Assembly (NCBI RefSeq): GCF_000737325.1
Contig: NZ_CP011125.1
Span: forward strand, 2,728,001-2,792,000
Direction of reading: 5' to 3'
DNA from: Sandaracinus amylolyticus
Lineage (GTDB): Bacteria; Myxococcota_A; Polyangia; Polyangiales; Sandaracinaceae
DNA length: 64,000 nt
Numbering within the stretch: position 1 is the first letter of the stretch; each line of letters begins with the position of its first letter. This document shows positions 46,277 to 60,592 of this stretch, piece after piece. The translations under genes and the position numbers were made by a program. The notes beneath the pieces are model-generated. The model saw nothing but the letters and a program-made list of their open reading frames with translations. It ran no database searches and was not told the DNA's origin.

Positions 46277-46459
46277 ATGACAAGCGTGGGGGGACGGCGC
46301 GCGCTCGTGGCCGACACGAGAGGCGCCGTGATGGCCGAGTACATCGTCATCACCGCGACGGTGGGGCTCGTGGTGGCCGCTGCGGCGGCCGCGATCGGCG
46401 TGCCGCTCGTCCAGTCCTTCCAGTTCGCACAGACGTTCCTCGTCCTTCCGTTCCCGTGA
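46277..46459 (+). CDS. flp: Flp-type prepilin, first copy
   Basis: A 60-residue class III prepilin. The leader ends at Gly16, followed by AVMAEYIVITATVG, so Glu21 is at position +5 and is followed by Tyr, as in Flp. A single hydrophobic helix follows, then a short tail rich in Phe and Pro. It should be cut by the CpaA-like peptidase encoded 300 bases on and polymerise into the Tad pilus. The GGAGA at 46266-46270 is a plausible SD. Confidence 0.85.
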   Translation: MTSVGGRRALVADTRGAVMAEYIVITATVGLVVAAAAAAIGVPLVQSFQFAQTFLVLPFP

Positions 46460-46524
46460 GCGCGGGAGTCGTCGGCAGGGCGGAGAGCACGTGAATCGAA
46501 CCATCGAGAACCAAGGAGAGAACA

Positions 46525-46743
46525 GTGGAACAGTCGACCCACCTCGAGACGACGCGCGCGCGCAAGCGCTCGCTGCTGCGCAACACCGTCGGCGCGAGCT
46601 TCACCGAGTACATCCTGATGATCGGCCTGATCGTCATCGCCGGCATCGTGGCGTGGTCGACGTTCGGCGAGGCCATCGACAGCGCGATCGAAGGCCAGGG
46701 CAACACGATGACCGACGTGGCCAACGGCGGCCGTCGCGAGTGA
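46525..46743 (+). CDS. flp: Flp-type prepilin, second copy
   Basis: A 72-residue prepilin beginning at GTG 46525 behind AAGGAGAG. A basic leader (RARKRSLLRN) ends at Gly23, followed by ASFTEYILMIGLIVIAG, with Glu28 and Tyr29 at the conserved +5/+6 positions. The acidic, Gly/Asn-rich tail differs from the first copy, so the two may serve as major and minor pilin. It ends 13 bases before the peptidase gene. Confidence 0.92.
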   Translation: MEQSTHLETTRARKRSLLRNTVGASFTEYILMIGLIVIAGIVAWSTFGEAIDSAIEGQGNTMTDVANGGRRE

Positions 46744-46756
46744 GCCGGAGGCTGCG

Positions 46757-47305
46757 ATGGAGACCGTCGAGCTCGGGTATGCCGTGCTGATCGTCGTGGT
46801 CGCGCTCGCCGCGATCAGCGACGCACGCACGGGGCACATTCCGAACTGGATCACGCTCCCGGCGCTCGCCCTGGGCGTGGTGCTGCACCTCGTCACCGAG
46901 GGCGTGCCCGGGCTCGTCGTCTCCGTCGCGGCCGTGTGCGCCTGCGCGATCGTGCCGTACCTGCTGTTCCGGCGCGACGCGATGGGCGGCGGTGACGTGA
47001 AGCTGCTCGCGGCGATCGGCGCTCTCGCGGGCGTGCGCGCCGGCATCGAGATCCAACTGGCCACCTTCGTCGTCGCCGCGATCTGGGTGATGACGAAGAT
47101 GGCATTCCACGGGCGACTGACTGCCACGCTGGGCCGCACTGCGAGAGTGGCAGTCGCGAACGTGCGCCGCGCGCCGCTGCCCGAGACGCGCGAGCTCGAT
47201 CCCGAGATGACGGATGCAGTCCGGCTCGGCATGCCCGCGCTCGCCGCGACGATCTTCTGCGTGCTCTCGAGGACGCTCGCGTTCTCGCCCTTCTTCGGAG
47301 GATGA
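46757..47305 (+). CDS. cpaA: Prepilin peptidase (CpaA/TadV)
   Basis: A 182-residue A24 aspartic peptidase with several membrane helices. The two catalytic aspartates are Asp22 (ISDARTGHIPNW) and Asp80 in the GGGDVKLLAAIGA motif. It removes leader peptides from the Flp and TadE-like precursors at the membrane. The C-terminal extension after residue 115 lies outside the minimal family length. Located between the pilins and TadE genes as in other tad loci. Confidence 0.93.
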   Translation: METVELGYAVLIVVVALAAISDARTGHIPNWITLPALALGVVLHLVTEGVPGLVVSVAAVCACAIVPYLLFRRDAMGGGDVKLLAAIGALAGVRAGIEIQLATFVVAAIWVMTKMAFHGRLTATLGRTARVAVANVRRAPLPETRELDPEMTDAVRLGMPALAATIFCVLSRTLAFSPFFGG

Positions 47306-47308
47306 GCG

Positions 47309-48196
47309 ATGCGCCTCGCCCGGGACACGCGCGGTGTCGCGTACACCGAGTTCCTCATCGCGTTCATGCCGTTCTTCGCGCTGGTGCTCGGGCTCACGCA
47401 GCTCGCGCTGCTCGGCCAGGCGCACCTCGCGGTGCGGCACGCGGCGAACGCGGCGGTGCGCTCGGCGGTGGTCGTCGTCGACGACGATCCGGCGCGATAC
47501 GGGGAGCAGCCGCGGCGCGAGCTCGACCCGCGCGCGCGCGGCGGCGGTGGCTCCAACGGTCTGCTGCGGATGATCGGCGCCACCGGGATCTCGCGCCGCG
47601 GCGACGCGCGCACCCGCGACATCCGGCTCGCGGCGTACGTCCCGCTGCTCGCGATCTCGCCGGCGCGGAGCCAGATCTTCTCGAGCAGTCAGCGCCAGTC
47701 GATCCAGCGTGCCGTGGGGACCGGGGATCTCTCTCGCGCCGGCTTCGGGATGCTCTACGTGCTCGGCGCGAGCGGCGTGATCGTCGGCGAGCGCGGCCGC
47801 ACGACGCGCTACGCACAAGGCGACGACGTGACGGTGCGCGTGACCCACGCGTATCCGTGCCTCGTCCCGCTCGCGTCGCGGCTCCTGTGCGACAACTGGC
47901 TGGAGCTCCAGAGCGGCATTCCGATCACGACGTCGCGCGATCTGCTCGATCGACTGCGCGGCGGCGTCGCGGGGCCCGACGACATCCGCGAGATCATGGC
48001 GGCGCAGCGCCGCGTGCGCGCCCAGCGCGATCGACTGCGCGACTCGCGCGACCCGCTGCGCGACCTCGACGAGGCCGAGCTCGCAGGGCTCCTCTGGACG
48101 ACGGTCGCGACGGGCACGCGGTTCCGACTGCTCACCGCCGAAGCGACTCTGCCGCTCCACTCGGCGCCGTATCCGTACCAGAGCGAGGTGCGCTGA
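47309..48196 (+). CDS. tadE: TadE-like pseudopilin
   Basis: A 295-residue protein. Its N-terminus has Gly9 then VAYTEFLIAF with Glu14 at +5, the TadE pseudopilin signature, followed by one membrane helix. The rest (about 260 residues) is a periplasmic domain, longer than usual TadE. It is thought to help build the pilus with TadG. It starts three bases after the peptidase stop and ends in one-base overlap with the next gene. Confidence 0.85.
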   Translation: MRLARDTRGVAYTEFLIAFMPFFALVLGLTQLALLGQAHLAVRHAANAAVRSAVVVVDDDPARYGEQPRRELDPRARGGGGSNGLLRMIGATGISRRGDARTRDIRLAAYVPLLAISPARSQIFSSSQRQSIQRAVGTGDLSRAGFGMLYVLGASGVIVGERGRTTRYAQGDDVTVRVTHAYPCLVPLASRLLCDNWLELQSGIPITTSRDLLDRLRGGVAGPDDIREIMAAQRRVRAQRDRLRDSRDPLRDLDEAELAGLLWTTVATGTRFRLLTAEATLPLHSAPYPYQSEVR

Positions 48197-50052
48197 TGGC
48201 TCGATCGATTCGACACGACGAGCGAGGCGCGATGATCGTGATCGGCCTCTTCTTCGCCGTGATGCTGTCGGGGTTCCTCTATTACCTCATCGGCATCGGC
48301 GAGACGATCGTCTATCGCGAGACGATGCAGGACGCGGCCGACGCAGGCGCGTTCTCCGCCGCGGTGGTGCACGCGCGAGGGATGAACGTCCTCGTGCTGA
48401 TCAACCTGATCATGGCCGCGCTCCTCGCGGTGCTGATCGCGCTGAAGCTGATCGAGACGCTGATCATCGGCGCGATCGCGGTGTGCGCGGCGCTCGCGTT
48501 CGTGACGTTCGGCGCGACGCTCGCCGCGATCCCGCCGCTCAACGTCGCGCGCACCGCGGTGAGCAACGTGCACCGGGCGACGCAGCGAGTCGTGTTCCCG
48601 CTCTTGCGCATCGGAAACCGGACTGCTCGCATCGTGCGCGTCGCGATCCCGCCGGCTGCGACGGTGCGGGCCTACGACGTCGCGATGGACGACGTGTACG
48701 CGCCGTCTCCGACGTTCGCGTTCACCTGGCCGATCGGAATCGGGCGCTCGCTGCCCACGGAGGACGGTGACTTCCGCGTGCTCTGCCGCAAGGGCGGTGA
48801 GGCCGTCGGTGAGGTCGTCGCGCTCCCGTTCCGCCGCATCCACAGCCGCATCGCGAGCTGGGTGAGCCGCGCGACGGGAGGGCTGGCCGCGACGTTCTCC
48901 GAGTGGTTCTGCAGCGGCTCGGGCGGACCGCCCAACTACTCGTATCCCATCGAGTTCGCGATCCCCGAGGTCGACACGCCCGCCGCGCGCGAGTGTCGCG
49001 AGTGTCAGGGCGACGGCTGCGACGCGATCTGCCAGCGCTCCGAGCAGGAGCAGCAGTCGTCGCAGCCGGCGGAGGATGCCAATCCGTACGACTGCCCCAC
49101 TCGCGGCGACGGCACCGAAGAGCCCATGTGCACGCAGCGCGCGGAGCAGGCGCGGCTGCAGTGTCGGCCGGGATCGGGAGCGCGGAAATTCAACTACGTC
49201 TACCAAGACGCGCAGATGACGCGCTGGTACTGGCGCGAGCAGATCCCCGGCAGCGACCCGCCGCAGTACCGCGATCGCCACACCGGTGACTCGCTCGCCG
49301 ACGCCGAGGACGAGCGGATGCAGGACCGCCTCGACGGAGCCACGCGGCGGATGACGGAGGGCAATCCGTGCTTCGGCGCGGTCGGATTCCCGGGCGCCGA
49401 CGGCTGGTCGTGGACGTGGAGCACCGAGGATCACACCGATCTGTGCGGTCGCAATCCGCCGACGATGCACCCCGACTACATGCTCCCGGGCGCGGTATTG
49501 CCGATCGGGCGCGATCGCGCGGTGTCCTATCGATATCGAATCATCCGTCGTCTCTTCGCGTGCCACGAGCAGCGCGATCAGACGCTGCAGGTCGAAGGTG
49601 GCAGTGGCGTTCCCTCGAACACGAGCGACATGCGCCCTCAACGCATGCGCGCACGGGAGCGCGACGGCACGCCGATCGAGCTCGGCGAGGACTCGTTCCA
49701 GGTGCGCATGATCGTGACGGGCCGCGAGCCCGGCGCGCACATGGAGCGGGGTGTCGAGCTCGCCAATTGGGGCCGCGACGTCGCGTCGCAGGGCGGCACG
49801 CTCGCGCTGCTGCGCAACTTCGGCGAGTACTCCGTCGCGCAGGCCGAGTTCTTCTATCCGTCCACCGACCTGCGCGATCGCGAAGAGTGGATGTGGAACA
49901 TGCGCTGGCGCGCGCGCATGCGGCGGTTCGTCCCGCCGTTCGGCGACGACGGCGGCTCGTCGTGCCGCGAGATGGGCGGGAGTGGGAGCGGCGGCAGCTG
50001 CGCCCAGACGTCGGGATTCGTCGGGATGATGCAGGACGCGATCGTGCACTGA
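48196..50052 (+). CDS. TadG-like protein with large Cys-rich passenger
   Basis: A 618-residue protein. The N-terminal RGAMIVIGLFFAVMLSGFLY helix and following MQDAADAGAFSAAVVHARG are the Tad/TadG signature, and a second hydrophobic pair follows (about 65-115). Residues 220-618 form a large, polar, Cys-containing periplasmic part (CRECQGDGCDAICQ, CTQRAEQARLQC). No von Willebrand domain is evident, so the passenger is unusual. It probably anchors or caps the pilus machine. It overlaps tadE by one base. Confidence 0.78.
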   Translation: MARSIRHDERGAMIVIGLFFAVMLSGFLYYLIGIGETIVYRETMQDAADAGAFSAAVVHARGMNVLVLINLIMAALLAVLIALKLIETLIIGAIAVCAALAFVTFGATLAAIPPLNVARTAVSNVHRATQRVVFPLLRIGNRTARIVRVAIPPAATVRAYDVAMDDVYAPSPTFAFTWPIGIGRSLPTEDGDFRVLCRKGGEAVGEVVALPFRRIHSRIASWVSRATGGLAATFSEWFCSGSGGPPNYSYPIEFAIPEVDTPAARECRECQGDGCDAICQRSEQEQQSSQPAEDANPYDCPTRGDGTEEPMCTQRAEQARLQCRPGSGARKFNYVYQDAQMTRWYWREQIPGSDPPQYRDRHTGDSLADAEDERMQDRLDGATRRMTEGNPCFGAVGFPGADGWSWTWSTEDHTDLCGRNPPTMHPDYMLPGAVLPIGRDRAVSYRYRIIRRLFACHEQRDQTLQVEGGSGVPSNTSDMRPQRMRARERDGTPIELGEDSFQVRMIVTGREPGAHMERGVELANWGRDVASQGGTLALLRNFGEYSVAQAEFFYPSTDLRDREEWMWNMRWRARMRRFVPPFGDDGGSSCREMGGSGSGGSCAQTSGFVGMMQDAIVH

Positions 50053-50063
50053 GGAGACGAGCG

Positions 50064-50630
50064 ATGACGACGCACGAGAGCCGAACGACTCGCTCGCTGC
50101 TCCGCGACACCCGCGGTGCAGCGTATGTGGAGGTCGTGCTGATGATGCCGGTGTTCATCTCGCTGTTCGCGGGAATCGGCTTCTTCCACCAGTTCTACAC
50201 GGCGCGCATGGACGCGGCGGCAGAGGCACGCCGATGCGCGTGGGCGTACGCGAACGGCGGCTGTGACGACGTTCCCGCCGGATGCGAGGGAGTCGTCGGA
50301 GGCTCGAGCGGAGGTGCGGAGTCGCGCACCTCGCGCCCCGAGGTGAACAGCGGAATCGCGGATGCGCGCGCCGGTGTCGAGCAGATGGATCGCGACATGC
50401 CGCTGTCGGCGAGCCGTCGCATCTACGAGGCCATCCTCGGGAGCTCGACGACGGCGCGAGGATCGGAGTCGGTGCCGATGCCCGACTGGGTCGGTGGCGG
50501 CAGCCGCGACGCGCGCTGCGGCTACACGGTCGTGTGCAACGAGCGCGAGCAGACGCTGGGCGGGCTCATCCGCGAGGCGTTCTGCAACAAGGCCAACGAC
50601 ATCGGCGTGGGAGGCGCGCTCGGATGTTGA
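50064..50630 (+). CDS. Second TadE-like pseudopilin
   Basis: A 188-residue protein with Gly18 then AAYVEVVLMMPVFISLF, Glu23 at +5 and one helix, the same layout as the first TadE. The soluble part contains Cys pairs (CAWAYANGGCDD, GYTVVCNE). SD GAGGAG precedes ATG 50064. Its stop overlaps the next gene start by seven bases. Confidence 0.85.
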   Translation: MTTHESRTTRSLLRDTRGAAYVEVVLMMPVFISLFAGIGFFHQFYTARMDAAAEARRCAWAYANGGCDDVPAGCEGVVGGSSGGAESRTSRPEVNSGIADARAGVEQMDRDMPLSASRRIYEAILGSSTTARGSESVPMPDWVGGGSRDARCGYTVVCNEREQTLGGLIREAFCNKANDIGVGGALGC

Positions 50631-51601
50631 ACGTCGGAAGCAGGCGCGCTGGACGAGCGCGCGCGAAGTGGCGGGAGCGCGCTGCGGGCTTCGGTCGCGC
50701 GGCGGGGTTCCTCTCCCTCGTGTGGATCGCGGCGACGCTCTTCGCGGTGCGCGCAGCGCGCGCCGATCTCGACGAGGTGATGCTCGGCTTCGGCGCCGAG
50801 ACGATGCACCTCGCGGAGGCGCGACAGCAGAGCGCGCCCACCGCGCTCTCGATCAACGGCGCGGAGCTCTTCGTCTCGTCGGGCATGGACGATCGCGCGC
50901 TCGATGCGGTGCTCGACGTCTTCGAAGCGCGGTGTCGCGCGTCGGACGGACACCTCCACGCGCAGCTCGAGCGCGCGGGGGAGACCGAGCTCGCAGCGGG
51001 CGGGTGGCTCGACGGAACGCTGCGCGAGGACGACGAGGACCGTGGGTACGTCGCGTGTCTCGACCTCGGGCCCGACGACGTCGAGCCCTCGGCGCTGCTC
51101 GAGCGCGTCCAGCGCTTCGTCGACACCGGCGATCTCGCGGCGATCGGTGAGCTCCGGTACGTGTTCGCCGAGCGCGCCGCGCACGGGACGCACTTCGTCG
51201 CGTACTGGACCGAAGGCAGCTTCCCGATCTCGGCGATGTTCCCGAGCGAGGGAGATGCGCCCGGACGCGACGTCGACGGCGTGGCGCGCCCGCCGGGATC
51301 GCGGCGCGTGCTCTCGGCGCGCGCAGGCGACGAGCCCTATTCTCTGACCGTCTTCACCGGCGCGAGCGTGGGAGTCGACGGGCTCGAGCGCTTCTATCGC
51401 GACGCGCTGTCGAGCGAGGGATTCCGACTGCTCGAGCCCGAGGCGCTCGAGGGTCGAGCGTACGAGTCGGACGGCGCGCTCGGATTCGTCGCGGAGCGCG
51501 ACGGACGGATGGTGACCGTCGTGATGGTGGACGACCCCGACGCGGGGCCGACCGTCGAAGTGCTCGAAGCGTCCGTGGACGCGTTTCGAACGCAGGAGTG
51601 A
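50624..51601 (+). CDS. Hypothetical envelope protein within tad operon
   Basis: A 325-residue protein with a basic N-terminus and one hydrophobic segment (about 26-45, FLSLVWIAATLFAVRAA) that serves as signal or anchor. The remainder contains two domains of mixed alpha/beta character with many acidic residues. No family recognised. It begins inside the end of the second tadE and ends three bases before cpaB, so it belongs to the operon and is probably a Tad accessory protein. Confidence 0.7.
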   Translation: MLNVGSRRAGRARAKWRERAAGFGRAAGFLSLVWIAATLFAVRAARADLDEVMLGFGAETMHLAEARQQSAPTALSINGAELFVSSGMDDRALDAVLDVFEARCRASDGHLHAQLERAGETELAAGGWLDGTLREDDEDRGYVACLDLGPDDVEPSALLERVQRFVDTGDLAAIGELRYVFAERAAHGTHFVAYWTEGSFPISAMFPSEGDAPGRDVDGVARPPGSRRVLSARAGDEPYSLTVFTGASVGVDGLERFYRDALSSEGFRLLEPEALEGRAYESDGALGFVAERDGRMVTVVMVDDPDAGPTVEVLEASVDAFRTQE

Positions 51602-51604
51602 GCG

Positions 51605-52396
51605 ATGAAGATCGGAGCATTCGTGGCATCGATGATCGTGGCGCTCCTCGGTGTGGGCGCGATGTTCGTGTCGATGCAGCAGTACCAGGCGCGCACCAGC
51701 GGCGGCGCGCCGGTGCAGGTCGTGATCGTGACGCGCGATCTCGCGCCGGGGACCGTGCTCACCGAGGACGCGCTCGGCGTGCGGTCGATGCCGGAGTCGT
51801 ACGTCGAGCGGCGGCACGTGAGGCCCGCCGACGTGCACATCATCCTCGGCCTGCGGGTCCGCTCGCGCGTCGAGACGAACGAGTCGCTGGTGTGGAGCGA
51901 CGTCGAGACGGGCGAGGAGGGCGCGCGCGAGCTCTCGCGACTCGTGCGCAGCGGCGTGCGCGCGGTGACGCTGAACGTCGACGGGCCGTCGGGGTTCGAC
52001 GGGCTCCTGCGAGCGGGTGATCGCGTCGACGTGTTCCACCACACGACCCGCGACGGAGAGGGACCGGTCACGACTCCGCTGCTGCAGAACGTCCTCGTGA
52101 TGGCGGTTCGCGGGAACGTCGGGCGCGGCAGCGAGCACGAGTGCGGCGGTGGGAGCAGCCAGCACGTGACGCTCGCGGCGACGGCCGAGCAGAGCCAGGT
52201 GCTGCTGCACGCCGACGCGTCGGGCTCGATCGGCCTCGCGCTGCGCAACCCGACCGACATCGCGATCGCGGACTCGCTCGACACGACGACCGACGGCGAT
52301 CTCCGCGATGCCGAGCGCCTGAGGCGCCTGCAGTCGCCCGTCGGCGCGGACCCGCTCGCGGCCGTCACCGCCCCCGGCGACGTGCGCGCGGACTGA
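51605..52396 (+). CDS. cpaB: Flp pilus assembly protein CpaB/RcpC
   Basis: A 263-residue protein. An N-terminal helix (VASMIVALLGVGAMFVS) is followed by an SAF domain (VVIVTRDLAPGTVLTEDALG and RSMPESYV) and the RcpC-type second domain (VRAVTLNVDGPSGFDGLLRAGDRVDV, in part). It links the secretin and the inner-membrane machine in the periplasm. In other loci it is followed by the secretin gene; here TadB follows after 48 bases. Confidence 0.9.
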   Translation: MKIGAFVASMIVALLGVGAMFVSMQQYQARTSGGAPVQVVIVTRDLAPGTVLTEDALGVRSMPESYVERRHVRPADVHIILGLRVRSRVETNESLVWSDVETGEEGARELSRLVRSGVRAVTLNVDGPSGFDGLLRAGDRVDVFHHTTRDGEGPVTTPLLQNVLVMAVRGNVGRGSEHECGGGSSQHVTLAATAEQSQVLLHADASGSIGLALRNPTDIAIADSLDTTTDGDLRDAERLRRLQSPVGADPLAAVTAPGDVRAD

Positions 52397-52444
52397 CGCG
52401 CTTCGGAATCGACGACTGGCACGCTCGAGAGGAGGAGTCGAATC

Positions 52445-53311
52445 GTGGACTCGGTGCTCAGCATGGGATGGACGGCGATCGCGGCGCTCGCGCTCACCGG
52501 CTTCGGGCTGCTCGGCGCGGCCTGGAGCCAGCTCGGGCGCGACGACAGCCGCACGAAGCGCGCGTGGGAGCGCTACGTCGTGCTGCTCGATCGCGACGTC
52601 TCGTTCCTTCGCCTCGAGATCGCCGCGCTGCGATTCGCGCAGATCCAGCTCGCGATCTCGGTCGCGCTGTTCTTCCTCGCGCTGGTGCTGCGCAATCCGA
52701 TGCCGGTATTCCTCGCGCCGCTCGTGTTCGGCGCGCCGCTCGCGTTCCTGCGTCGCGCGCGCGACAAGCGCGTCGCGTCGATGGAGGACCAGCTCGACGG
52801 CTGGATGATGGGCCTCGCGAACACGCTGCGCGCGACCCCCGCGCTCGGCGAGGCGATCGACTACTCGTCGAAGATCGTCGGCGCACCGCTCGCGGACGAG
52901 TTCGACTTCCTGCTCAAGGAGCGCTCTCTCGGCGTGCCGCTGGACGACGCGCTCCGCAACACCGGCGCGCGCATCGGGAGCCGCGCGATCGGCGCGGTGC
53001 TGTCGACGCTCGTCGTCGGTCGTACGACCGGCGGAAGCCTGCCCGAGATCCTCGAGACGTCCGCGGCGCAGCTGCGCGAGATGGCGCGCCTCGACGGAGT
53101 CATCCGCACCAAGACCGCCGAAGGTCGCTCCCAAGCGTGGGTGCTCGCGCTGATGCCGTTCGGATTGCTCGCTGCGATCCAGGCGGTCGATCACGACTTC
53201 TTCGAGCCGCTGCTGCTCTCGGTCACGGGATGGATCGTGATCGCGATCTCGACCGCGCTGTGGGCGATCGCGGTGTTCAGCGCGAAGAAGATCCTCGAGA
53301 TCGACGTGTGA
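52445..53311 (+). CDS. tadB: Tad inner-membrane platform protein TadB
   Basis: A 288-residue type II secretion F-domain protein. Membrane helices lie near the N-terminus (10-26), the middle (72-100) and the C-terminus (about 235-285). The F-domain is about 115-245, with QLDGWMMGLANTLRATPALG and TTGGSLPEILETSAAQLREM. GTG 52445 is preceded by GAGGAGGAG. It forms the platform with TadC that the motor ATPase would drive. Confidence 0.9.
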   Translation: MDSVLSMGWTAIAALALTGFGLLGAAWSQLGRDDSRTKRAWERYVVLLDRDVSFLRLEIAALRFAQIQLAISVALFFLALVLRNPMPVFLAPLVFGAPLAFLRRARDKRVASMEDQLDGWMMGLANTLRATPALGEAIDYSSKIVGAPLADEFDFLLKERSLGVPLDDALRNTGARIGSRAIGAVLSTLVVGRTTGGSLPEILETSAAQLREMARLDGVIRTKTAEGRSQAWVLALMPFGLLAAIQAVDHDFFEPLLLSVTGWIVIAISTALWAIAVFSAKKILEIDV

Positions 53312-53329
53312 GGAGGAGGCCAGTCGACC

Positions 53330-54241
53330 ATGTCGGAGATTGCTGCAGCTCCCTGGCTTCCCTGGGCCGCGCTCGCGATGCTCGGCGTCGGGCTCTTCGG
53401 CGCGACGCTGGTCGTCTCGCTCGTCCCCGCGGTCGCGAGCCCGTCGCTCGGTCCCCGCGGCGCTCAGCGCCAGCGTGCGAAGAGCGAAGGCCCGTTCGGC
53501 GCGCTCGAGCCGATGGTGCGAGTGGTCGCAGGATGGTTCGCGCTGCTGCCGCCCGCCGATTGGCGTGCTCGCGTGGAGGCCGATCTCCTGCGCTCCGGGT
53601 ATTGGCTCGGACTGACTGCCGACGAGGTCGCGGCGATGTCGGTGCTCTACGCGGTCGGGCTCGGAGTGGCGGGCACGTGGCTCACCGCGCGGTTCGGGTG
53701 GTCGCCGCTCGTTCCGGTGCTCTTCGTCGCGATCGGCGCGGCACATCCGTTCTCGCAGCTGCGCGACGCGACGGCGCGACGACAGAAGGAGATCGAGCGC
53801 CGATTGCCGGAGGCCGTCGACCTCTTGAGCCTGTGCATGGGCGCCGGCCTCGACTTCCCCTCTTCGCTGCGCCGACTGCTCCTCGACGGACTGCCCAAGG
53901 GCACGCCGACGGCCGACGAGCTCGGCCGCATCCTCGACGAGCTGGAGCTCGGCCACACCCGCGCCAAGGCGCTGATCGGCTTCGCGGATCGCGTCCCCAC
54001 GCGCCCGGTGCGCGACTTCGTCGGCGCGATCGTGCAGGCCGAGGAGAAGGGCACGCCGCTCGCGGAGATCCTCAAGATCCAGGCGCGCGTCCTGCGCATG
54101 CGCCGCAGCGTGCTCGCCGAGGAAGCGGCCGCGCGCGCGGCGATGCAGCTGATGATCCCGCTCGTCCTGATCTTCGTCGCGATCATGCTGCTCGTGCTCG
54201 GGCCGGTCGCGATCACCGTCATGGAGATCGGCAATGTCTAA
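53330..54241 (+). CDS. tadC: Tad inner-membrane platform protein TadC
   Basis: A 303-residue F-domain protein. Motifs LPEAVDLLSLCMGAGLDFPS and AIVQAEEKGTPLAEILKIQA are typical TadC, and helices are at about 15-38, 100-148 and 275-300. SD AGGAGGAGG precedes ATG 53330. The TAA stop overlaps the next gene start by eight bases. Confidence 0.92.
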   Translation: MSEIAAAPWLPWAALAMLGVGLFGATLVVSLVPAVASPSLGPRGAQRQRAKSEGPFGALEPMVRVVAGWFALLPPADWRARVEADLLRSGYWLGLTADEVAAMSVLYAVGLGVAGTWLTARFGWSPLVPVLFVAIGAAHPFSQLRDATARRQKEIERRLPEAVDLLSLCMGAGLDFPSSLRRLLLDGLPKGTPTADELGRILDELELGHTRAKALIGFADRVPTRPVRDFVGAIVQAEEKGTPLAEILKIQARVLRMRRSVLAEEAAARAAMQLMIPLVLIFVAIMLLVLGPVAITVMEIGNV

Positions 54242-55094
54242 GCTCCGGATCACGCTCCCCGACGGCTCGGAGCTCGAGGCCGCGCTCGTCGCTCGGACCA
54301 CGGTCGGCACCAGCGCGAGCGCGGGAGTCCGACTGCCCGCCGATCTCGACATCGAGGGAGAGCATTTGTTGCTCGTCCCGCGACAAGATGGCTGTTGGAT
54401 CTCCGTCGCTCGAAATGCGCGGACTCCGGTGCTGCGCGACGGAATCGTGCTCCAGGACGCACTCCTGCCCTGGGGCGCACGTCTCGTGATGGGCGGCGCG
54501 ACGCTCGAGATCGGTGTCGCGGCCGGCGCGGGAGAGGGCAGTCGAGTCCGGACTCTGCTGCTCGCGATGGTGGTCGGGATCGCGGCGCTGCTGGCGGTCG
54601 CGGTGGTGCGCAATCGGAGCGCACGTGCGGAGTCGCTGCGCGACGGATCGCTCGAGCCCTCCGGGCTCTTCGACGCAGCCGGAGATTGCGCGGATGCGGC
54701 CGACGCGCGCGACGAAGGGGCGGAGTCGCTGCGGGTCGCGCGCGCGCGCGGAGAGCGGTTCCGCTACGACTACCAGGACGGAATCGCCGCGGTATCGGCG
54801 TACTCGCGCGCCGAGCAGTGCTTCCTCGCGGCGGGCGCGGTGCCCGCGGCGGAGCGCGCACAGCGCGAGGGGCACGCGATGCGCGAGGAGATCGAGGGCA
54901 CGTATCGCCGCCTGCGCCTCTCGCTCCAGCAGTCGCTCGACCGTGGCGACGACGCGACCGCGCTCGCGACGCTGCGCGAGCTGCGCGAGCTGACGCACCA
55001 CCGGCGCGACGACTACACGGCGCATCTCGCCGAGCTCGAGCGCGAGCTCCAGCTCGATCTCGGTCTGCTGCTCGACGACGACGACGCGCGATGA
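54234..55094 (+). CDS. FHA-like domain membrane protein
   Basis: A 286-residue protein. The first 95 residues are beta-rich and start LRITLPDGSELEAAL with GTSASAGVRLP and LDIEGEHLLLVP, resembling an FHA domain though with a degenerate Ser-x-x-His core. A membrane helix follows (about 105-123, LLLAMVVGIAALLAVAVV), then a helical, charged periplasmic part (150-286) of coiled-coil character. It overlaps tadC, so it belongs to the pilus operon. FHA domains bind phosphothreonine, which suggests kinase input, unproven. Confidence 0.75.
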   Translation: MSKLRITLPDGSELEAALVARTTVGTSASAGVRLPADLDIEGEHLLLVPRQDGCWISVARNARTPVLRDGIVLQDALLPWGARLVMGGATLEIGVAAGAGEGSRVRTLLLAMVVGIAALLAVAVVRNRSARAESLRDGSLEPSGLFDAAGDCADAADARDEGAESLRVARARGERFRYDYQDGIAAVSAYSRAEQCFLAAGAVPAAERAQREGHAMREEIEGTYRRLRLSLQQSLDRGDDATALATLRELRELTHHRRDDYTAHLAELERELQLDLGLLLDDDDAR

Positions 55095-55119
55095 AGCCCA
55101 TGCACAGCGAGGAGATCCG

Positions 55120-56445
55120 ATGATGTCCACTGCTCAGAGCGCACCGCAGAGCGCCGCACCGCGCGTCGAAGCGCCGCAGGGTCGCGTCACCGTGCTGCGC
55201 GGTTGGTCGACCACGTACGTCTGGGAGATCCCGCCCGGCGCCGCGCGCACCGAGGTCGGCATCGGCAGCGGGCCGGTGGGGTGGCGGATCGACGCGAACG
55301 GCGTCGCGCCGCGCCACCTCGACCTCGTGTGGGACGGCGAGGCGATGTGGGTCGTGCCGTACGCGCCCGTGCTGGTCGACAGCACGCCGATTGCGAGCGC
55401 GGTTCGGCTCGAGGGCCGTCACGTGATCGAGCTCGGGTGGGCCGCGCTGGAGATCACGACCACCGCGCGCTCCGCGCGTCGCTTCGATCCCAAGCGCACG
55501 ATGCTCGGCGGGCCCGCGATGGAGATGCCTTCGCTCGACGATGGTCGCCCGACGATCCCGGTCGACGCGCTCGGAAGCGACGCCGCGGGCCGCGTGTCGA
55601 TGGCACCGCCCGCGCTCCCGGTGCCCCCCTCGCTGCCCGCGCTCCCCGCGGTCGCGAGCGGGCACGCCCCGTTGGTCGCGCAGGCGCCCGCGATGGGCCA
55701 CGCGATGATCTCGCCGGTCCAAGGCTTCGGCGACGTGACCGTGGTGAGCAAAGCGGTGTCGCAGGCGACCGTCATGTCCCTCGAAGTACCGTCGGGCCCG
55801 CTGCCGGCAGCGATGCGCCCGCACCTCGGACAGGTGGAGATCGCTGCGCAACCGGCGAGCGAGCCTGCGCCGGTCGTCGCGGCGGTGAGCGGGTCGTCGA
55901 GCGACGAAGCGGGGTTCTCGGAGCCTCCGAAGCGCCGCGGGATCCCGCCGCGCACGCTCGCGCTCGCGGCCGCGTTCGTGGCGCTCTCGGCCGTCGCGAT
56001 CGGCGTCAACCACACGCGACAGGCGCGCGCCCGCGCGATGGCGCGCGAGCAGGCGGAGCTCACGGTCGCCGACACCGATCTCGACGCCACGAGCGCGGCG
56101 GGGACGGACTCCGCTGCTCCCGCGACGGACTCCGCTGCTCCCGCGACGGACTCCGCTGCTGCCGCGACGGACTCCGCTGCTGCCGCGACGGACTCCGCTG
56201 CTCCCGCGACGGACTCCGCTGCTCCCGCGACTGCCGTCGTCGACGCGGAGGGCCGTACTGCGCTCTCTCGCGCGATCGATCTCGTCGCCGCGGGTCGATG
56301 GGCGGACGCAGCGCGCGAGTACGAGGTGCTCGCGACCGAGCATCCCGACGACGGCGAGTACCGCGTCATCGCGCGGATGCTCCGGCGTCGTCTCGAGGCG
56401 GCGTGCGCCGCGAGCGGAGGAGGTGCGTCGTGCGCGCAGCCCTGA
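55120..56445 (+). CDS. Second FHA-like membrane protein with TDSAA repeats
   Basis: A 441-residue protein. Residues 20-125 resemble a divergent FHA-type beta sandwich (VGIGSGPVGWRIDANGV, VWDGEAMWVVPYAP). A Pro/Ala linker follows, a membrane helix is at about 283-300 (TLALAAAFVALSAVAIGV), then a repeat of Thr-Asp-Ser-Ala-Ala units (329-370) and a helical C-terminus like a TPR (ALSRAIDLVAAGRWADAARE). ATG 55120 or 55123 is used, with GAGGAG upstream. It overlaps the next gene by 16 bases. Confidence 0.72.
   Translation: MMSTAQSAPQSAAPRVEAPQGRVTVLRGWSTTYVWEIPPGAARTEVGIGSGPVGWRIDANGVAPRHLDLVWDGEAMWVVPYAPVLVDSTPIASAVRLEGRHVIELGWAALEITTTARSARRFDPKRTMLGGPAMEMPSLDDGRPTIPVDALGSDAAGRVSMAPPALPVPPSLPALPAVASGHAPLVAQAPAMGHAMISPVQGFGDVTVVSKAVSQATVMSLEVPSGPLPAAMRPHLGQVEIAAQPASEPAPVVAAVSGSSSDEAGFSEPPKRRGIPPRTLALAAAFVALSAVAIGVNHTRQARARAMAREQAELTVADTDLDATSAAGTDSAAPATDSAAPATDSAAAATDSAAAATDSAAPATDSAAPATAVVDAEGRTALSRAIDLVAAGRWADAAREYEVLATEHPDDGEYRVIARMLRRRLEAACAASGGGASCAQP
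56104..56229. repeat. 21-bp tandem repeat, six copies, in FHA protein gene
   Basis: Six in-frame copies of a 21-base unit (ACGGACTCCGCTGCTCCCGC plus one base) begin at 56104, 56125, 56146, 56167, 56188 and 56209. Each encodes TDSAAPA or TDSAAAA. The periplasmic linker can thus lengthen or shorten without a frameshift. Confidence 0.95.
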
Positions 56446-57149
56446 TGATCGTCCTGGTCGCGCTGGGTCTCTGCAGCGCGTGTGGTGCGCCGGCTCCGTC
56501 GCGGGTGCGCGTCGCGCTCCCGGTGGTGTTCGCCGCCGAGCGTGATCCCGGCGAGCCCCTCGCCGGCGTGCGCGTGCACGTCGCCGGTGAAGATCGCGGC
56601 GTGACCGGCGAGGACGGAACCCTGCGCGTGATAATCGACGAGGCCGAGGGCGCTCGGCTCGCCATCGCCGCGGAATGTCCGGCGGGACATCGCAGCGCGG
56701 AGGTCGCCGACGAGATCGTCGTGCGCGCGGTCGAGTCACTGCGCCGCGAGGAGCCGCGGCTCCACTATCCGATCCGCTGCGCGCCCACCGAGCGCCGCGT
56801 CGCGCTGCTCGTGCGCACGGGTGGCGAGGCCGATCTCCCGGTGCGCGTCGCGGGCCGCGAGGTCGCGAGGACCGACGCCGCAGGCGCCGCGCAGGTGGTG
56901 CTCGCGATGGCGCCCGGCAGCGCGTTCCGCGTCACGCTCGGCACCGAGGGCGACGAGCGACTGCGCCCCGTCGATCCGGTGCGCGCGTTCACCGTCGGCG
57001 ACCGCGACGAGATCGTCGTGCTCGATCAGCACTTCGAGCACGTGCGCGGCCGATCGGGGCGTCGTCCGACGCCGGAGCCGGAGCCCGAGGTCGAGGTCGC
57101 GCCGGAGCCCCCGTCCGAGCCCACGCGCCCGCCCGAGCGTCTCAACTGA
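56430..57149 (+). CDS. Predicted lipoprotein at end of tad operon
   Basis: A 239-residue exported protein from GTG 56430, with GGAGGAGG at 56416-56423. Signal peptide MIVLVALGLCSACGAPA has a borderline lipobox. Two beta-sandwich-like units (for example PLAGVRVHVAGEDRGVTGED, and LPVRVAGREVARTDAAG) resemble carboxypeptidase-regulatory or transthyretin-like folds. The end is a Pro/Glu-rich tail. It may anchor the pilus apparatus to the outer membrane; context only. Confidence 0.75.
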   Translation: MRAALMIVLVALGLCSACGAPAPSRVRVALPVVFAAERDPGEPLAGVRVHVAGEDRGVTGEDGTLRVIIDEAEGARLAIAAECPAGHRSAEVADEIVVRAVESLRREEPRLHYPIRCAPTERRVALLVRTGGEADLPVRVAGREVARTDAAGAAQVVLAMAPGSAFRVTLGTEGDERLRPVDPVRAFTVGDRDEIVVLDQHFEHVRGRSGRRPTPEPEPEVEVAPEPPSEPTRPPERLN

Positions 57150-57902: not shown

Positions 57903-58954
57903 AGGAACACCCCGCCGATCGTGAGCGCGATGCGCGGGACCCAGGACGTCCCCGCGTAGTTCTCCGTCACGGCGACGTCGTTGACGATCTCGACGTGCGC
58001 GTGACTGCGATCCTGGACCGCGAGCGCGAGCCCCAGCTCGAGCCGGCGATCGTCGAGCGCACGGAACACCACGCCGAGCTCGGGACCGCCATAGCTGCGC
58101 ACCACGTCGAAGACGGGTAGCACCTCGAATCCATACTCACCGCCGGCTCGCAGCGACAGCCACGACGTCACGTCGACTCCCACGAGACCGCGCAGTGCGA
58201 CGTAGCCGAACCCCGTCGCGTGCAGCACGTGCGTCCTGTCGTATGCATATTCGTTGGAAGACGATTGATGGCTCTGTAGTCCGAGCACCATCGCAGCACG
58301 GACGTGCAGGATCGTCTCCGGGACACGCAGGTCCGCACCGATCGCGAGGTCACCGCCGAAGCGGCCCTGCATGCCGTAGTACGGATCGCCGAACGACAGC
58401 GCGAACGCGACGCGACCCTCCACGACGAAATGCAGCATCCCCTCGGGCCGCATCACGAGCTGTGTGCGCGGATCGACTCCGTTCCACGCCACATCCCGCG
58501 CGTGCCCGTCGCCGTACTCCCCGACCGCACCGGGCGTGGTCGCGGTCTGCAGTCGATCGAGATCGGCGCCGCTCAGCGCGTCCGCGGTCGACGGCTCGGC
58601 GTGCTCGATCGCCGGCGGCGGCTCGGTCACGGGCTCGCTCGGCGCGGGCTCTGCCGGGGGCGGCGTCGCGGGCTCCGTCGTCACCGGCGGCGCCGCGGGC
58701 GTCGGCGCGCTCGGTGCGTCCGCGAACTGCACGCGATCGAGCTCGCTCGCCTCGATCGTCCTCCGCGATCCGTCGGGCAACAGGATCACCACGCGCACGC
58801 CGGGCTCGAACACCTCGACGGTGCCGCGCAGTCGCCCGCCGTTGCGCAGGAACACCGTGTCCGCGCCCTGCGCGCTCGCGCTCGACGCGACGAGCATCAC
58901 GAGCGCGATCACGATCGCGGCGAGCCGTCGCTCAACGACAATATCCGACGCCAC
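57899..58954 (-). CDS. Exported protein with SH3-like head and beta-barrel-like part
   Basis: A 351-residue protein from GTG 58954, with GGGAGGA upstream. The signal peptide (AAIVIALVMLVASSASAQG) is followed by a short beta unit (TVFLRNGGRLRGTVEVFEPG), similar to small SH3/Sm-like domains found in other myxobacterial exported proteins, then a Pro/Thr/Glu-rich linker. Residues about 150-350 are amphipathic strands ending IALTIGGVFL, consistent with an outer-membrane protein. It overlaps both neighbours. Confidence 0.72.
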   Translation of the reverse strand: MASDIVVERRLAAIVIALVMLVASSASAQGADTVFLRNGGRLRGTVEVFEPGVRVVILLPDGSRRTIEASELDRVQFADAPSAPTPAAPPVTTEPATPPPAEPAPSEPVTEPPPAIEHAEPSTADALSGADLDRLQTATTPGAVGEYGDGHARDVAWNGVDPRTQLVMRPEGMLHFVVEGRVAFALSFGDPYYGMQGRFGGDLAIGADLRVPETILHVRAAMVLGLQSHQSSSNEYAYDRTHVLHATGFGYVALRGLVGVDVTSWLSLRAGGEYGFEVLPVFDVVRSYGGPELGVVFRALDDRRLELGLALAVQDRSHAHVEIVNDVAVTENYAGTSWVPRIALTIGGVFL

Positions 58955-59738
58955 TGACCGTCCTCCCGCTGCAAGTGCCCGTCGTGCAATCGAGGCTGTC
59001 GCCACACAGCTGCCGGCACGTCCCGCCGATGCACGCGGCGCCCCGCACGCACGAGTCCGCCCACGCGCACGACTGCCCGACCGCGGCCGCGCCCGGCGGC
59101 AGACACGTCGCGATCTCATCCTCGCTCTCCGGATCTCCGAGCAGCACGCACGCGCGCCCGCCCGGGCAGTCCTGCGTGAGGAGGTCGCAGTCGTTCACCG
59201 GCACGCAGAGCCCCAGGCACGTCTCGCCGGTGCGCGCTTGCATCAGGCAACGTCCCGCCGCGCCGCACTCACCGACGCTCCCGATCCGACACTGCCTCAC
59301 GCACTCGAACGCGTCGCTGAAGAGCCCCCGGCACTCGAGCCGCTCCGCGCACTGGTTGTCGACGGTGCAGCTCTCGCCCTCGCCGCGCAGCGTGAACGCC
59401 GACGAGACGCAGCGCGTGCCCATCGTCGCGTCGGAGATGCACGTGCGGTTCGCGCCGCAGGGGTCCCGCTCGAACGGATCACACCCGCCGACCACGCGAC
59501 AGACCGGCGCCGAGCCCGCGTCGCGCCCTGCGTCGACCGCTGCATCGACGCCCGCATCACGCCCCGCGTCCGGCGGCCTCGGCACGAACGCGTCGACCGG
59601 CGTCCAAGTCCCGCTGTCGACCGGTGGTGGCGGTGGGAGATCGAGATCGACGTGATCGGGATTGCACCCGGTCGTGATCGCGACGACCACCACGCACACC
59701 GCCAAACCCGCTCGCGTCGCACCGATGCTGCTGGTCAC
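58932..59738 (-). CDS. Cys-rich lipoprotein of the CNPDH type, copy 2
   Basis: A 268-residue lipoprotein. The signal ends VVVAITTGC followed by NPDHVDLDLPP, which is nearly the same as the upstream neighbour. An Asp-Ala-Gly spacer follows, then about 200 residues with some twenty paired cysteines in repeated modules (CGANRTCISD, CTVDNQCAERLEC, CTTGTCSGRT). GTG 59738 is the likely start though its SD is weak. It is a paralogue of the next upstream gene; surface display is likely. Confidence 0.8.
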   Translation of the reverse strand: MTSSIGATRAGLAVCVVVVAITTGCNPDHVDLDLPPPPPVDSGTWTPVDAFVPRPPDAGRDAGVDAAVDAGRDAGSAPVCRVVGGCDPFERDPCGANRTCISDATMGTRCVSSAFTLRGEGESCTVDNQCAERLECRGLFSDAFECVRQCRIGSVGECGAAGRCLMQARTGETCLGLCVPVNDCDLLTQDCPGGRACVLLGDPESEDEIATCLPPGAAAVGQSCAWADSCVRGAACIGGTCRQLCGDSLDCTTGTCSGRTVSGVGYCR

Positions 59739-59782
59739 GCGGCCGCGAGGATAGGCGGCTCGTCCGACACCGTCGAGAACGT

Positions 59783-60592
59783 TCAGCGGCAGAACTGCAC
59801 GCCCGCGGCGGTCCTTCCGCCGCATGACGATCCGACCGGACAGTCGTCGCTCGTCGTGCACAACGGCTGACATCGCGTGGTCGAGCCCACTCCGTCGGTG
59901 CGCGAGACGCAGAGAAGCCCGGGCTCGCACCGCGTCGGATCGCGCAGGCACGAGCGCGTCTCCTGCTCCGTGCCCGCGCGATGGCAGAACACGTGATCGC
60001 GCGCCGCGTCCTGGTCGCGCATCCAGTAGCAGCCCCGGCCCGCGCCGCAGGTCTGGCCGACGAGGTCGCACTCGGCGAGCGCGATGCACCAACCCGTGCA
60101 GCTCGCGATGCGTCCGAGCTCCGCGCATCCCTGGCCCGTCCCGCAGTCCGAGTCCTGGTCGCACAGTCGTCGGCACTGTCCGCCGCCGACCACGTACGAG
60201 CGCGTGCAGAGCAATCCGGGCCCGCAGTCCTCCGCAGACTCGCAGTCCTCGCCCTCGCGCCGCGTGCCCGAGCGACCGCACGACCACTCGGCCGTGAGAT
60301 CGTCGAACCCGCAGCGGCAGCTCGCGTCGTAGAGCGGATGGCAGCCGCCGATGGTCCCGCACGTCCGGCCGCCATCGCCTGCGCCCGCGTCGTCGGCATC
60401 GCGACCGGCATCGGCGCGCGCGTCGCGACGCCCGGCGTCGCGCGTCGGCTCGGGCACGTTCCCCCCGGCGTCGATCGGCGCGAGATCGAGATCGATGTGA
60501 TCGGGATTGCACCCCGCGATCACGAGCAACACGACGAGCCCGATTGGCCACGAGCGCGCGAGTCGCGCGCTCGTTCTCTCCGCCACGCTCAC
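59783..60592 (-). CDS. Cys-rich lipoprotein of the CNPDH type, copy 1
   Basis: A 269-residue lipoprotein with signal GLVVLLVIAGC then NPDHIDLDLAP. The Asp-Ala-Gly/Arg spacer and Cys modules (CESAEDCGPGLLC, CDQDSDCGTGQGC, CTTSDDCPVGSSCGG) match its downstream neighbour. GTG 60592 overlaps the ferredoxin reductase stop by four bases (GTGA), which ties an exported protein to a cytoplasmic redox enzyme in one transcript. Confidence 0.82.
   Translation of the reverse strand: MSVAERTSARLARSWPIGLVVLLVIAGCNPDHIDLDLAPIDAGGNVPEPTRDAGRRDARADAGRDADDAGAGDGGRTCGTIGGCHPLYDASCRCGFDDLTAEWSCGRSGTRREGEDCESAEDCGPGLLCTRSYVVGGGQCRRLCDQDSDCGTGQGCAELGRIASCTGWCIALAECDLVGQTCGAGRGCYWMRDQDAARDHVFCHRAGTEQETRSCLRDPTRCEPGLLCVSRTDGVGSTTRCQPLCTTSDDCPVGSSCGGRTAAGVQFCR

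Follow-up and report, generated by a model that had tools for sequence, protein, structure and literature searches.

A Tad pilus operon of Sandaracinus amylolyticus without motor or secretin genes, and its probable dependence on a distant complete cluster

The 64,000-nucleotide stretch of Sandaracinus amylolyticus DNA analysed here (the window; positions 2,728,001 to 2,792,000 of contig NZ_CP011125.1) carries 13 genes on the + strand, at 46277-57149, which form a Tad operon with the boundaries given in an initial annotation of this region. Flp prepilins, a prepilin peptidase, a TadB + TadC pair and CpaB/RcpC are features of Tad/Flp (type IVc) systems. A collinear and complete Tad cluster (locus L012, at 10.158-10.176 Mb) lies 7.4 Mb away in the same genome, and the identities given below refer to its genes.

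The operon opens with two short prepilins, Flp1 (46277-46459; 60 amino acids (aa), a G/AVMAE cleavage motif of the G/XXXXE type, 40% identity to Flp1 of the complete cluster) and Flp2 (46525-46743; 72 aa, G/ASFTE motif), followed by a prepilin peptidase of the TadV/CpaA type (46757-47305; Pfam Peptidase_A24, 7e-20). Two candidate tip proteins come next: a TadE-like minor pilin (47309-48196; 33% identity, with a Pfam TadE match of 1.7e-4 slightly below cut-off) and a large TadG-like minor pilin (48193-50052, the start being uncertain within 48193-48232) that aligns with its counterpart at E = 3e-55. A second TadE-like minor pilin (50064-50630; Pfam TadE 0.0024, likewise slightly below cut-off) precedes 'HypD', a conserved Tad-linked protein without known function (50630-51601; 38% identity to the gene at the same position). 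CpaB/RcpC, of the periplasmic alignment complex (51605-52396; Pfam RcpC 5e-21, TIGR03177 7e-38, and a CpaB profile that matches the solved RcpC 9gzr), is followed by the inner-membrane platform proteins TadB/CpaG (52445-53311; T2SSF 2e-11) and TadC/CpaH (53330-54241; T2SSF 6e-16). The last three genes encode an FHA1-type protein (54234-55094; 33% identity to L012:12675-13535), an FHA2-type protein (55120-56445; matching L012:15387-17042, which carries a Pfam FHA domain), and a lipoprotein with an immunoglobulin-like repeat (56445-57149; 42% identity to the final gene of the complete cluster). AlphaFold models of the TadG-like protein (predicted local distance difference test score, pLDDT, of 37 from 8 sequences) and of protein P0001 (pLDDT 57, single sequence) were unusable.

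As the initial annotation pointed out, this series from Flp to lipoprotein has CpaB directly before TadB: the last base of CpaB is 52396 and the first of TadB 52445, so that only a 48-base junction (52397-52444) is left at the place where the complete cluster holds a secretin gene and an FHA-CpaF gene. The operon encodes neither a CpaF/TadA motor ATPase nor a CpaC/RcpA secretin, and whole-genome PF00437 and PF00263 searches place none in the window. An assembly gap or a recent deletion at this point was ruled out, since a second Sandaracinus species has the same junction, of about 30 bp. TadZ had also been listed as missing; the operon indeed has no TadZ gene, but this does not set it apart, the complete cluster having none either (the TadZ_N profile gave nothing above cut-off, but the CpaE-bearing Caulobacter was missed by it as well). 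Two further genes are absent relative to the complete cluster, a TPR lipoprotein and a second CpaF, bringing the missing set to four.

In the complete cluster, the interval between CpaB and TadB is occupied by the secretin (PF00263 7e-32; RcpA is the best solved relative) and then by FHA-CpaF (FHA domain, 2e-14). The interval between the two FHA-type genes, 3' of the FHA1-type gene, holds the TPR lipoprotein and the second CpaF, whose best solved relative is the pilus assembly ATPase CpaF (4e-95). These four genes are the exact set missing from the window operon. TadD is a TPR lipoprotein that acts as pilotin of the secretin in the RcpA-TadD pair (PMC10499894), and by analogy the TPR lipoprotein of the complete cluster is probably its equivalent. 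The presence of two CpaF-type ATPases in one cluster (L012:9024-10877, FHA-fused, and L012:14173-15360) is a pattern retained in most Tad-bearing genomes of the order; they are possibly separate extension and retraction motors.

We searched the whole S. amylolyticus genome, a single contig of 10,327,335 bases, for Tad components. It contains four TadB/TadC platforms (at 10.17, 6.36, 2.78 (the window) and 1.06 Mb), five CpaB, a single Tad secretin (10.16 Mb) and two intact CpaF motors, both inside the complete cluster. Two more T2SSF proteins, with two domains each (1.27 and 4.94 Mb), are GspF- and PilC-type in appearance, and of the two remaining PF00263 proteins one resembles PilQ and the other GspD. 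The suggestion of the initial annotation that the missing parts are encoded elsewhere is therefore borne out: the sole Tad secretin and both intact CpaF belong to a second, complete cluster, which is not beside the window. The CpaF census rules out an individual remote motor for each of the other clusters. An FHA-T2SSE protein at 9.49 Mb (L015:7725-10034; 769 aa) was rejected as an orphan motor, as its Walker A motif is lost; it is possibly a CpaF-derived regulator, and other Myxococcota without motorless clusters also have CpaF-like frames in this size range (about 690-780 aa). A lone CpaB lies at 9.77 Mb (L035:9942-10865), near a uvrB-like gene in Sandaracinus, and lone CpaB genes away from any Tad cluster are also found in another Sandaracinaceae genus (L040, L044, L046).

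The platforms at 6.36 and 1.06 Mb, like that of the window, belong to clusters with neither motor nor secretin, which we term satellites. The 6.36 Mb satellite (L034) comprises CpaB, TadB, TadC, an FHA2-like protein, a lipoprotein, Flp1, TadE, TadG and TadE2. The 1.06 Mb satellite (L033, L119), the closest paralogue of the window operon in the genome, comprises TadE2, HypD, CpaB, TadB, TadC and FHA1 and, several kilobases on and in reversed orientation, Flp1, Flp2, the peptidase, TadE1 and TadG.

We consider it probable, with moderate confidence, that the window operon is a satellite Tad cluster using the motor and secretin of the complete cluster at 10.16 Mb. The operon would supply its own prepilins, peptidase, TadE/TadG tip proteins, CpaB ring and TadB/TadC platform. 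This platform would dock onto the CpaF motors made by the complete cluster, and the CpaB ring onto its CpaC secretin with the TadD-type pilotin. If the satellites at 1.06 and 6.36 Mb do likewise, one motor and channel set would serve several platforms with differing pilins and tips, the exchange unit being the whole platform. Sharing with another system, an option raised at the outset, is best supported given four platforms for one secretin and one motor pair, conservation of this arrangement in the second species, and retained CpaF-docking glycines (see below); physical sharing itself we infer. The absence of the pilotin-like TPR lipoprotein along with the secretin, as in the RcpA-TadD pair, is also in favour of sharing.

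The interfaces that such docking would use were evaluated against conserved columns taken from about 70 complete-type TadB/TadC proteins. Satellite TadB proteins keep 22-27 of 28 conserved columns and satellite TadC proteins 37-42 of 43, those of the window standing at 27/28 and 42/43. Among the retained columns are the LG..L and TGG/EKG tip glycines. A published model (PMC11300603) places a pair of glycines from the tip of each platform protein at the contact with CpaF, and the LG..L and TGG/EKG columns probably correspond to these modelled contacts. CpaB, the ring that joins the platform to the secretin and binds its N-domain (PMC12307814), is present in every satellite and keeps 30-37 of 38 conserved columns. 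From these residues, docking of satellite platforms on parts of the complete cluster appears plausible. Three observations weigh against sharing. Satellite TadB, TadC and CpaB are only about 36-54% identical to the proteins of the complete cluster; the C-terminal secretin-binding hairpin of CpaB is not alignable, the 6.36 Mb CpaB being short there; and the 6.36 Mb satellite has no prepilin peptidase, so the satellites differ in completeness.

The same residues bear on the possibility that the satellites are motorless inner-membrane complexes, acting as static display, sensor or slow export platforms with no pilus extension. An operon without motor or secretin is what such a complex would have, and the FHA-type proteins suggest signalling. 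However, the modelled CpaF-docking residues are retained, as is CpaB, whose known role is that of a conduit to the secretin, and the dN/dS (ratio of nonsynonymous to synonymous substitution rates) of TadB (0.10) and TadC (0.055) is low. We regard this reading as unlikely, and we found nothing in support of the non-retractile export platform that the initial annotation had offered as a further option.

It is a little less unlikely that subunits are exchanged, the satellite pilins, tips, CpaB and platform proteins entering the machine of the complete cluster to give mixed machines, with no separate satellite machine. Such exchange would depend on the one motor and secretin as well, and there is a precedent in the Kil system of Myxococcus xanthus, where alternative TadE/F/G-type Tip sets, up to four sets of minor pilins, share one engine (PMC12075869). 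In contrast, the matched CpaB-TadB-TadC block of each satellite fits separate platforms better, and the divergence of the sets is old, TadB and TadC being 36-47% identical to those of the complete cluster.

A motor or channel could also be borrowed from type II secretion or a type IVa pilus (GspE/GspD, PilB/PilQ) rather than from Tad, since those proteins are encoded in the genome. We consider this improbable: the ATPases and secretins belong to distinct families, TadB and TadC retain Tad-type conserved columns, the exact missing set is present in a collinear Tad cluster, and the FHA-T2SSE protein at 9.49 Mb is degenerate.

The arrangement is stable between species. In the second Sandaracinus species (G002), the same census returned four TadC, five CpaB, two CpaF and one CpaC, and the counterpart of the window operon is locus L038. 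The dN/dS values between the two species were 0.139 for the window operon, 0.140 for the 6.36 Mb satellite, 0.117 for the 1.06 Mb satellite and 0.140 for the complete cluster, indicating that the satellites are under purifying selection, like the complete cluster. A decaying duplicate heading for loss, which the missing core parts might evoke, is accordingly the least probable reading of all: every gene is intact, the dN/dS is 0.14, the cluster is kept in the second species, and a motorless satellite occurs in another genus as well.

The latter, in another Sandaracinaceae genus (G003), is a single satellite (L042) with the order CpaB-TadB-TadC-FHA1 and no room for a secretin and FHA-CpaF. A Labilithrix metagenome-assembled genome (MAG) also has a satellite (L109) plus a complete cluster (L087). 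One TadC and two CpaF is the usual state in other Tad-bearing genomes of the family and order. Within a sample of 113 Myxococcota genomes, the only cases of TadC lacking a CpaF on its contig were in S. amylolyticus (three loci) and in seven genomes with CpaF on another contig. Four of these seven were examined and appear to hold one machine divided between two loci; such split loci were rejected as satellites, as they keep CpaB-CpaC-CpaF-TadB together and TadC apart. The Myxococcales MAG HKST-UBA18 carries a Tad cluster (L107) with CpaB, secretin, TadB, TadC and TPR lipoprotein, and with no CpaF within the stretch examined, which makes it an incomplete locus of a different kind.

In a tree of TadB+TadC, the window satellite forms a clade with that at 1.06 Mb (support 100), and the 6.36 Mb satellite with that of G003 (83; Shimodaira-Hasegawa-like approximate likelihood ratio test 98). 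In no case is the sister group of a satellite the complete cluster from the same genome. Three origins were suggested by the unconstrained tree, but many independent motor losses were set aside, as approximately unbiased (AU) tests are compatible with a single origin in Sandaracinaceae: a common origin of the seven Sandaracinaceae satellites was not rejected (p = 0.74), and one that also includes the Labilithrix satellite was (p = 0.003). From these results, the motorless state is old and arose at least twice; long branches in the tree limit finer historical statements.

The 1.06 Mb satellite holds two genes whose products have N-termini resembling Flp prepilins, followed by an Arg/Asp-rich linker. 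The first (L033:8192-8998, at 1.058 Mb) has a G/QLGIE motif and a C-terminus without known domain, and its end is overlapped by a 70-aa open reading frame (L033:8995-9207) that is 94% conserved and matches no immunity family. The second (L033:16535-17464, at 1.0665 Mb) has Q instead of E in the motif and a C-terminal Tox-HDC match (1e-5, above cut-off). A third gene, at 7.876 Mb (L135), combines the same N-terminus with a C-terminal Peptidase_M91 domain (5e-21). A profile of this N-terminal region finds these three genes in S. amylolyticus and three in the second species, all three being conserved, matches Flp2 of the window weakly (E = 0.002), and finds no gene in three other genomes searched (G001, G003, G007). 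A common N-terminal region with differing C-terminal domains is a hallmark of polymorphic toxins, and because it resembles an Flp signal, this N-terminus would be the trafficking region, which suggests candidate pilus-borne effectors. We tentatively propose, as a possibility that we rate well below the sharing of motor and secretin, that the satellite platforms process and load effectors built as pilins, in which an Arg/Asp-rich linker joins an Flp-like N-terminus to a variable toxin C-terminus, and that the shared motor and secretin would then deliver them. Pilins are not mentioned in the accessible part of a large 2012 survey of polymorphic-toxin trafficking. If the proposal is correct, such toxins would have a trafficking route based on Tad, and the fusions of the 1.06 Mb satellite would be concrete toxin candidates for Tad-dependent, contact-mediated killing.

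Among known systems, the closest parallels are with Kil, which serves in predation and is likewise a Tad-type pilus rich in FHA proteins (PMC8460266, PMC12075869). Kil has an ATPase with a fused N-terminal FHA domain, a fusion also seen in the 10.16 Mb cluster, and several alternative sets of tip proteins on one engine; its platform, CpaB and pilins are encoded away from the secretin and ATPase, which here is true of the satellites and not of the complete cluster. However, Kil is one machine spread over two loci plus Tip-only loci, whereas S. amylolyticus has a complete cluster and three satellites with their own platform and CpaB; and Kil has a single ATPase and no TadD, as against the two CpaF and the TPR lipoprotein of the complete cluster. 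The Caulobacter cpa and the Pseudomonas and Aggregatibacter tad/rcp loci share homologous Flp, TadV, TadE/G, CpaB, TadB and TadC with the window operon, which differs from them in having no secretin, pilotin, CpaF or TadZ. Vibrio vulnificus also has multiple Tad loci per cell (tad1-3), with a proposed specialisation through minor pilins (PMC12075869, PMC6748444), but in that species three separate tad loci are described, whereas three of the four clusters here are without motor and channel.

Four platforms with one set of motor and secretin, stable across species, provide a natural test of the interfaces that fix specificity (CpaF-TadB/TadC and CpaB-secretin), in systems usually treated as one locus encoding one machine with a dedicated CpaF. 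The idea of exchangeable tips known from Kil would be extended to exchangeable platforms. In a predatory or competitive myxobacterium, these may act as interchangeable pilus heads for one engine, which could thus run several different, possibly weapon-bearing, pili.

Downstream of the operon, at 58932-60592 on the - strand of the window, lie two adjacent lipoprotein-like genes, which are Cys-rich paralogues and share CNPDH..DLDL close to their N-termini.

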